Positions 20,481-26,192 of a stretch of DNA of 40,100 bases are shown here, piece after piece. The translations under genes and the position numbers were made by a program. Position 1 is the first letter of the stretch. Every line of letters begins with the position of its first letter. Source of the DNA: Candidatus Aminicenantota bacterium. Its GTDB lineage: Bacteria > Acidobacteriota > Aminicenantia > UBA2199. Under the pieces are notes generated by a model. It worked only from the letters and a program-made list of their open reading frames with translations. It did not search any database and was not told the origin of the DNA. The stretch covers positions 1-40,100 of the forward strand of contig JAFGST010000037.1 of the NCBI GenBank assembly GCA_016934475.1, in the 5' to 3' direction.

Positions 20481-20548
20481 AAATTCCAAATCCCAAGCAC
20501 CAAATTCCAAATAAGCTCCAAATTCCAATCACCCAATGATCCAAACAA
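20481..20548 (+). repeat. AT-rich 'CCAAATTCCAA' repeat, copy A
   Basis: attccaaatcccaagcaccaaattccaaataagctccaaattccaatcacccaatgatccaaac; near-identical to the reverse complement of 25923-25982. Confidence 0.85.
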
Positions 20549-20555
20549 AGAAAAT

Positions 20556-20669
20556 GTCAGTGTCGGTGTTGGCAACAGTTTTATTCGATCGATTGCTGTT
20601 TCAAATCACTTTTCACAAATCATTGATCACTTTGAATCCGCCAAGTTTCTTGCTGACACTGACACTGTC
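20556..20669. repeat. Imperfect inverted repeat with short tandem units
   Basis: GTCAGTGTCGGTGTTGGCAA (20556-20575) vs TTGCTGACACTGACACTGTC (20650-20669): 16/20 complementary. The right arm continues as gacact/gtcact hexamers to 20678. Confidence 0.7.
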
Positions 20670-20678
20670 ACTGACACT

Positions 20679-22034
20679 CTAGAACTTCTTGCTGGCTCCG
20701 GCGCCTCCCGATCGGCCGCCGCCGAACGAGGGCGAAGAGCTGCGGGACGTTCCCGATGAGGATGACGGCGGCGAGGACAGCCGCGGCGTGTTGTGCTCGC
20801 GGGTCTTGGTGTAACCGCACGCCGGATTGACGCAAGTCTCGGTAACCCGCGCCCGGCCGCCGTGCTCTTTTGTCGCCGCCACCAGGGTGGTGGAGCTGGA
20901 TTTCAGCGTTCGGCGCCGGCACTGGGGGCACTTGGAGGCCTTGTTCAGCTTGACCGCCAGGCGCTCCTCGGCGCCGCACCCGGGGCAGCGCCAGAACTCG
21001 TAGTCCATGCCGCCCGCCCTCTCCTCGGCCGCCTCCTCTTCGCTGAGCAGCGGGTCGTCCAGGGCGTCCTTGACCATTTCCATCGGCGCGCCGCACTTGG
21101 AACAGGGGAGGCGGTAGGAGGCCAGGCGGCGCTTCAGCAGCCTTCCGGTGAACAGGCGGCCGAAGGTGGCCAGCGACGGCGCCGCCAGCATGGCGATGAA
21201 CGGCGCGAGGAACTGCCCGCCGAGGTTGGCGACCAGGATGAAGGAGGCCACGGCCGCGATCCAGGCCAGGATGACGCTCGCGGGCGTTTTCCCCGCGATC
21301 TTGGCGCGCGCGGCCCGGCCGCGCGCCCTGTTGAAGCGCAGCAGCGTCCAGGCGCTGGCCAGGAGGGCGAAGGCCAGGATGCCGCCCGCGAAATAGAGGG
21401 AGGAGAGGAGCGGGTCCCAGCCCGGTTTCTTTTCCGCCTCCGGCCGCCGTGGCGCTGCGGCAGGGACGGGCTGTTCGGGCCAGGGCTCAGGATCGGCGAC
21501 GGCCAAAACGACTCCCTGGGCGGCCGCGGCCGTTTTGGCGATCTCGCGCGCGGCCAGGAACAGGCCGCGGCCAAAAAGCCCCTGGTGCAGGAATGGGAGG
21601 CCGCTGTCGTCCAATAGCCGCGAGGCGAGGGCGTCGGGGATGGTCGCCTCCAGGCCGTAGCCCACCTCCAGGCGCAGCATGCGGTCGTCGCGCGAGCAAA
21701 GGAGCAGCAAACCGTTGTCCCTGCCGGCGACGCCGATGGCGAATCTCTGGAACAGCTTCACGGCGAACTCCTCGATCGTCAGGCCGCCCAGGCTGCCCAC
21801 GGTGATCACGGCCAGCTCGATCGTAGTCTTGGCCTGCAAGTCGCGGCAGACGCCGTCGATCAGCACGACGTATTCGGGACCCAGCACGCCGCCGTTGTCC
21901 GTGACGAAGGCGCCCGACGATTGCCGCGGATTGGGCACGTCCTCGATCCTTTCCGCCCGCAGCGCGGGGCTGCGGAAGGAGGCCGCTAGAAGGAACAGGC
22001 AAAAAACCTTTTTCGCGAGGCAGGCAGCATTCAT
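20679..22034 (-). CDS. TPM-domain (YgcG-like) membrane protein with zinc-ribbon-like Cys pairs
   Basis: Signal peptide, GAFVTDNGGVLGPEYVVLIDGVCRDLQAKTTIELAVITVGSLGGLTIEEFAVKLFQRFAIGVAGRDNGLLLLCSRDDRMLRLEVGYGLEATIPD; later CSKCG, CPGCG, CPQC and a Gly/Ser-rich tail. Confidence 0.9.
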   Translation of the reverse strand: MNAACLAKKVFCLFLLAASFRSPALRAERIEDVPNPRQSSGAFVTDNGGVLGPEYVVLIDGVCRDLQAKTTIELAVITVGSLGGLTIEEFAVKLFQRFAIGVAGRDNGLLLLCSRDDRMLRLEVGYGLEATIPDALASRLLDDSGLPFLHQGLFGRGLFLAAREIAKTAAAAQGVVLAVADPEPWPEQPVPAAAPRRPEAEKKPGWDPLLSSLYFAGGILAFALLASAWTLLRFNRARGRAARAKIAGKTPASVILAWIAAVASFILVANLGGQFLAPFIAMLAAPSLATFGRLFTGRLLKRRLASYRLPCSKCGAPMEMVKDALDDPLLSEEEAAEERAGGMDYEFWRCPGCGAEERLAVKLNKASKCPQCRRRTLKSSSTTLVAATKEHGGRARVTETCVNPACGYTKTREHNTPRLSSPPSSSSGTSRSSSPSFGGGRSGGAGASKKF

Positions 22035-25684: not shown

Positions 25685-25720
25685 GTCTCCGAAAGGATCA
25701 ATCGACGTCGGGCAACAGGC

Positions 25721-25755
25721 GTCAGACGTCGGACATCAGATATCAGACATTAGCA
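25721..25755. repeat. Degenerate heptamer tandem repeat
   Basis: gtcagac gtcggac atcagat atcagac attagca (5 x 7 bp). Confidence 0.7.
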
Positions 25756-25766
25756 TGAAAAAGAAA

Positions 25767-26042
25767 GGTTCCTCACGCAAATTCGTGCACAGAGCACAAG
25801 GCCAGAAGAGGGAGGAATGGGATAAAATTCCAAGCACCAAGCACCAAATCCCAAATAAATTCCAAGTTCCAAATTCCAATGTCCTAAACGAAGGCCATTG
25901 CAAGCATCTTTTCTTCGTTTTGGTCATTGGGTCATTGGAATTTGGAGCTTATTTGAAATTTGGTGCTTGGAACTTGGTGCTTCAGTCCCACTAGATCGCA
26001 CGGCTAATAAGTTAAGCACTGCACAAATTTGTGAGAGGAGCC
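25767..26042. repeat. Composite palindromic element (possible MITE-like element or giant hairpin)
   Basis: Outer arms GGTTCCTCACGCAAATTCGTGCA (25767-25789) and TGCACAAATTTGTGAGAGGAGCC (26020-26042), 19/23 complementary. Inner arms ~25828-25897 and ~25914-25982 carry the CCAAATTCCAA repeat in opposite orientations. Confidence 0.8.
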
Positions 26043-26192
26043 AAAAGAAAAAGCCAAGCTGGGTATGGCGCGCGGCTGGCGGTTGCTGCCTGGTGCCGCG
26101 CGTTTCCCATTCGCCTGATCTCTTCTTTGTTGCAACCATTGGCGGTGTCCCCGCATCTTATCGGGTGAAAGACGAACCACGAGGAGGTCAGA

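Follow-up and report, generated by a model that had tools for sequence, protein, structure and literature searches.

The IVP/S23 proteins have so far been known mainly from broken-up ribosomal RNA genes; their structures have been solved, and we know of no function or catalytic activity assigned to them. In the 23S rRNA IVS of Leptospira and Coxiella a stem-loop carries a PF05635 open reading frame (ORF) in its loop, with tandem heptamers (GACAGAT) ahead of the ORF in Coxiella, and mobility of these IVSs has long been suspected (PMC4990558); a five-membered IVP ring is reported by Lin et al., as cited in PMC4990558. IVP has also been described in rRNA insertions (PMC11270868) and listed among the functions associated with CRISPR-Cas loci (PMC3936711), and PF05635 has been reported to be homologous to Avd of diversity-generating retroelements (PMC10053308). 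A separate literature treats STRR and TAACTGA repeats, degenerate 7-bp units in intergenic DNA whose horizontal spread is suspected by a mechanism that is not evident (PMC4679880). Like the locus described here, MITEs are short and multicopy, with terminal inverted repeats (TIRs), a target-site duplication (TSD) and no transposase gene, and REP/REPIN elements with RAYT are likewise dispersed hairpins tied to a short protein-coding parent. No account joining the IVS heptamers, the heptamer repeats and the IVP genes of cas loci was found in the open-access literature searched, an absence that is no proof of novelty.

Our analysis concerns a 276-bp palindrome in a window of 40,100 nucleotides from the draft genome of a Candidatus Aminicenantota bacterium (79.8% complete, 271 contigs). 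Genomes are given G-numbers and compared loci L-numbers; the window element is L001 and its genome G000. We consider it probable that the palindrome is a non-autonomous, MITE-like insertion derived from an IVP/S23 mobile element. The relevant features of the window are as follows.

20481 to 20554, plus strand (gene orientation): copy A, a lone arm of the same core, adjoining a tRNA gene.
25699 to 25761, plus strand: a second, different heptamer array (GACGTCGG.. / AGACATCAG..), lag-7 self-identity 0.69.
25759 to 25766, no strand: left TSD, AAAAGAAA, identical to 26043-26050.
25767 to 26042, no strand: complete long-form element, MITE-like and gene-less, 276 bp, with TIRs at both ends and a TSD.
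25767 to 25789, plus strand: left TIR, GGTTCCTCACGCAAATTCGTGCA, complementary to the right TIR at 19 of 23 positions.
25825 to 25885, plus strand: left heptamer array of CCAANNN units, pairing with the right array; lag-7 self-identity up to 0.71 at 25824-25887.
25886 to 25927, no strand: apex or loop with inner stem AAACGAA/TTCGTTT, at the position of the IVP gene in L032 and L094.
25928 to 25985, minus strand: right heptamer array, pairing with the left array.
26020 to 26042, minus strand: right TIR, reverse complement GGCTCCTCTCACAAATTTGTGCA, shared by full copies.
26043 to 26050, no strand: right TSD, AAAAGAAA.

The first-pass annotation had delimited the palindrome and described its 23-bp outer arms from the letters of the window, and both descriptions were borne out: the boundaries 25767-26042 are the true ends of the element, marked by TIRs and by a perfect 8-bp direct duplication on both sides. 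This duplication, the heptamer units and the dozens of copies go beyond what had been noticed before. The 23-bp imperfect TIRs (TIR GGYTCCTCNCRCAAATTTGTGC) are common to full copies in several species, and a search by pattern turned up 26 TIR-like sites, spread over 5 of the 16 genus genomes. Perfect 8/8 TSDs also flank L003 (TGATTTCT) and L036 of G015 (AAAATATT), so that three copies carry one; the duplications are imperfect at L008 and L295 (7/8) and at L006 (6/8), and none was seen in the older copies L054 and L278. The neighbours of the window element are a Kre9-like-domain gene and a PDZ gene, and the short orthologous gap in two relatives, G015 (L102) and G013 (L103), lacks it. In G001 and G004 other heptamer-type palindromes precede the PDZ gene, in gaps matched through the PDZ gene. 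The element is 90.5% identical to a G015 copy over 275 bp, whereas the DNA of the PDZ orthologue is only 71% identical. Together, these features make it very probable that the window copy was inserted via TIR and TSD; the TSD shows that a staggered cut duplicating 8 bp brought the copy into the Kre9-like/PDZ gap. TIRs, a TSD of fixed length and multicopy status without a transposase gene are all found in the window element, and the annotation's suggestion of a MITE-like element is thus supported by copy number, TIRs, 8-bp TSDs and empty orthologous sites; its remark that no transposase is encoded also stands, the 276 bp containing no such ORF.

Copies of the element are abundant within the genus. 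Where the annotation had called for a search for further copies with matching boundaries, whose absence was to count against it, dozens were found in the source genome alone: 101 BLAST pieces at about 40-50 places, each palindromic copy yielding two pieces. This copy number is an underestimate, because several TIR copies of G000 with near-identical interiors fall at contig ends. All 16 genus genomes carry copies, with 15-49 match rows each, and the 25 genomes searched outside the genus gave two weak single matches. Full-length or near full-length relatives of the window element occur in G000, G003, G004, G008, G013 and G015. About a quarter of 40 compared copies share the outer TIR part and most consist of the core alone, and since most core copies stand without the TIR part, the TIR form may be chimeric, combining an IVP palindrome with a MITE of separate origin. 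The match to copy A, which the annotation had noted as nearly identical, reverse-complemented, to the right inner arm, is real: its stretch 20486-20554 corresponds to element positions 143-211 (the right arm), reverse-complemented, at 90%, and it is a single arm rather than a second palindrome. Beside copy A, at 20556-20680, opposed GTCAGTG.../...CTGACACTGACAC repeats form a further palindrome next to a TPM-domain gene. Core copies at L009, L014, L019, L020, L024, L025 and others are nested in outer arms of another heptamer family (CGTGACGCGTAACG / CGTTACGCGTCACG), and look as if elements insert beside or into one another.

The core of the element consists of two inverted arrays of degenerate CCAANNN heptamers with the period of 7 that characterises STRR-like repeats. 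The inner arms and innermost stem described by the annotation are present, the main arm pair (25830-25872 / 25935-25977) being 43 nt long and 84% complementary. The comparison with shuffled controls that it proposed gave a folding energy of -118 kcal/mol, where the shuffled sequences averaged -68.8 (z = -10.6; 0 of 200 shuffles as low), with z = -10.2 for the opposite strand. Such a stable fold on both strands, at a gene junction, might be expected of a domesticated structured RNA, be it a terminator, an mRNA stabiliser or a regulatory hairpin, kept for its function, and the annotation had listed a structured ncRNA among its readings. The comparative data do not bear this out. Compensatory changes affect only 1 of 15 pairs in 40 aligned genus copies, the Rfam scan of the window matched a tRNA alone and no family for the element, lone arms such as copy A occur, and the element is present or absent at orthologous sites; across phyla, a test of base classes lent only weak support (chi2 p = 0.012). 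We therefore regard a structured RNA with its own function as very unlikely. Near the apex of L003, L010, L026 and L295, on one or both arms, lies a micro-insert of about 20 bp with a CCCC..GGGG hairpin (GTCCCCGCCAGGGGA) that resembles a separate REP-like unit.

The origin of the core is indicated by gene-bearing relatives. On contig C140 of G000 (L032) the same core opens at its apex around an IVP gene, and in G003 (L094) the same core carries a gene whose protein is 92% identical to that of L032; Pfam, NCBIfam and the PDB sequence match 2rld identify the IVP fold family (PF05635, a four-helix bundle). As a measure of selection, the two genes give a dN/dS of 0.079, with 26 synonymous and 11 nonsynonymous changes. 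The 62 nt outside the L094 array run colinear with the end of the MITE, its TIR included (score 52-54, against a best of 28 in 1000 shuffles), and because they align end to end, the gene-bearing L094 has a MITE terminus on its assembled side. The window copy itself holds no PF05635 ORF in its loop, and the earlier statement that it lacks coding capacity is correct to that extent; its loop nevertheless appears to keep remnants of the IVP/S23 gene that is intact in these two relatives. The minus strand at 25927-25907 reads ATGACCAAAACGAAGAAAAGA (MTKTKKR), which is probably a relic of the IVP start codons, and the apex probably also retains a 3' untranslated remnant of the gene; the N-termini of IVP relatives in other phyla likewise start at the arm's CCAATGACC. 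As the ORF has been lost here yet kept in L032 and L094, we file the window copy as a derivative rather than as a member of the IVP/S23 elements, and we hold with high confidence that it descends from an IVP element as a MITE-like form without the gene. The apex is shared among the aligned gene-less copies, for which one deletion derivative that spread is the simplest reading, gene conversion between copies being possible. Copies can apparently persist without a resident IVP: in the 93% complete genome G015, at least 42 match rows were counted and no IVP gene was detected. From their flanks, L032, L094 and the gene-less L040 of G011 appear to be one orthologous site, and L032 and L094 were accordingly dropped as proof that the gene-bearing form is mobile within the genus.

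The enzyme that moves the element was sought in the same genomes. The annotation had suggested looking for a transposase with matching TIRs, and none, nor any IS with the element's TIRs, was found in the 16 draft genus genomes (ISL3, IS6, IS256, Y1 and TIR pattern search). Among candidate movers, neither the ISL3 nor the IS6 family is represented in the genus, and IS256, present in 3 genomes, has no TIRs that match. Genes for Y1 transposases were found in all but one of the 16 genus genomes, and with the dispersed intergenic hairpins they would fit a REP/REPIN-like element moved by a Y1 (RAYT/IS200-type) transposase on hairpin DNA; the element, however, flanks none of the 20 Y1 loci fetched, and G003 is rich in window-type copies with no detectable Y1. 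Its units are heptamers, not REPs of 20-40 bp. Set beside the REP pattern of a GTAG/CGTC tag on a 20-40 bp palindrome, its length does not fit; core ends read GTAGGACT in some copies. Y1 enzymes are not known to make 8-bp TSDs, and the REP/REPIN case has units of another length, another partner protein and another target duplication, which makes this explanation most improbable. A stronger competitor is an ordinary MITE of an unseen IS, moved by a DDE transposase, with the captured IVP hairpin a passenger without a role. TIRs with an 8-bp A+T-rich TSD are typical of DDE elements, the TIRs occur in a minority of core copies only, and the elements of other phyla and of plasmids are without them. 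Against this, the gene-bearing L094 has the same outer end, core-only copies are dispersed too, no IS with such a TIR turned up in the 16 genomes, and it is IVP-type sequence on which the examined TIR sites lie. We regard the passenger explanation as possible but somewhat doubtful. The element also departs from described MITEs in that its interior is an IVP-type heptamer hairpin, its gene-bearing relative encodes a four-helix bundle instead of a transposase, and no partner transposase was found in the genus.

On the preferred reading, derivation from an IVP/S23 mobile element, the parent would have had the layout TIR, spacer, heptamer array, IVP gene, inverted heptamer array, spacer, TIR. Paired with each other, the arrays would fold single-stranded DNA or RNA into a long hairpin, and recognition of this heptamer hairpin by the cognate IVP could give the family its specificity; that IVP takes part in movement we rate as an even chance. 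A recombinase or transposase recognising the TIRs would then cut and join the strands in trans, and whether this is a DDE-type enzyme is in our estimate equally balanced. Insertion would finally be tolerated at gene junctions, where the hairpin would either fold out of the way or be cleaved by RNase III, as has been shown for the IVS in 23S rRNA.

Evidence that IVP genes and their arrays move as a unit comes from cyanobacterial plasmids, where IVP genes lie between STRR-type heptamers. Comparison of filled and empty sites reveals that gene and arrays were gained as one unit at gene junctions, as between Trichormus plasmid C and Nostoc linckia and others (flanks about 98%), Picosynechococcus PCC 7003 and 7002 (between cas10 and cmr3), Nostoc MS1 and Trichormus plasmid A, and Aulosira and Tolypothrix. 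In the Trichormus insertion a 13-bp gap receives the gene and arrays with a possible 5-bp duplication, GTAAT, and the other plasmid insertions include one probable longer duplication. On cyanobacterial plasmids, the IVP genes at L348, L349, L365 and L366 occupy cas2-cas1, cas6-cas4 and cas10-cmr3 junctions, and empty sites exist for cas2-cas1 and cas10-cmr3. The presence of IVP genes in defence operons should thus be read with caution as to function, since those on plasmids look like insertions that separate cas genes or other members of an operon, and relatives have the empty sites. These plasmids also bear on the proposal that the heptamer arrays are products of polymerase slippage at their present sites, with an appearance of mobility only, and that the IVP genes are there by chance. 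Slippage has been proposed for heptamers (PMC4679880), and L350 and L351, the same IVP locus on two closely related Planktothrix plasmids, differ by whole heptamer units (CCCCAAT, CGTAAAT), a strain-level expansion and contraction. Yet most loci have their arrays in inverted orientation about a single gene, the copies share complex non-repeat parts (TIRs, apex), the filled and empty pairs record a one-step gain, and TSD and TIR contradict slippage for the window element, leaving it a most unlikely explanation.

Beyond the plasmids, inverted heptamer arrays lie on both sides of nearly every PF05635 gene examined from the genus and class, the heptamers differing (GTGACGA, GGGTCTA, CGGTATA, AGACGTT, GTTCGAC and others). 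Around the genes for relatives of the L032 protein, which share 56-73% identity with it and come from many phyla, the arrays remain of CCAAAT/ACAAAT type, with some altered to CGAAAT or CTAAAT types, as read by eye for about 50 of 80; one family search used a hand-written family consensus, not a database sequence, as its query. For inverted flank complementarity, 135 of 181 IVP loci from many phyla exceed the 99th percentile of random windows and 60 of 181 that of mismatched flank pairs, with flank self-identity peaking at lags 7, 14 and 21, and neighbouring genes are co-directional in 114 of 130 and 108 of 128 cases. The minimal IVP element is about 430-600 bp, with one four-helix-bundle gene of roughly 115 aa. 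No TIRs like those of the window element were found at elements in other phyla and plasmids. Co-evolution of protein and heptamer was considered and rejected: the correlation is strong in the whole set (Mantel r 0.52) and in the named set (0.40) but weak in the phylum set (0.14) and nil in the genus/class set (0.00), and heptamers are clearly shared by close relatives only.

Several differences set these loci apart from the systems described above. The window contains no rRNA and the element's neighbours are protein genes, so it does not lie inside a 23S rRNA; in contrast to the 23S IVS, window-type elements occupy gaps between protein genes and have long inverted heptamer arrays, dozens of gene-less copies, TIRs and 8-bp TSDs. 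The STRR papers found make no link to IVP, whereas here inverted array pairs surround IVP genes, and unlike in Avd systems, inspection of the loci brought to notice neither a reverse transcriptase nor a template repeat. IVP heptamer elements look like an under-recognised class of mobile element, and the mobile heptamer-hairpin family around IVP is widespread and apparently so far undescribed. That IVP genes flanked by inverted heptamers form one widespread minimal class across phyla, inserting at operon junctions with IVP as its own specificity or mobility factor, and comprising the 23S IVSs, the cyanobacterial STRR heptamers and the cas-locus IVP genes, with the window element as its MITE form, we put forward tentatively, as a proposal slightly short of even likelihood. 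If true, the role of IVP/S23, the scattered heptanucleotide repeats and the mobility of the 23S IVS would merge into one testable question. In the window itself, the unrelated heptamer array at 25699-25761 abuts the left TSD of the element and resembles the arrays around the IVP genes L073 and L089 (in G002 and G003).
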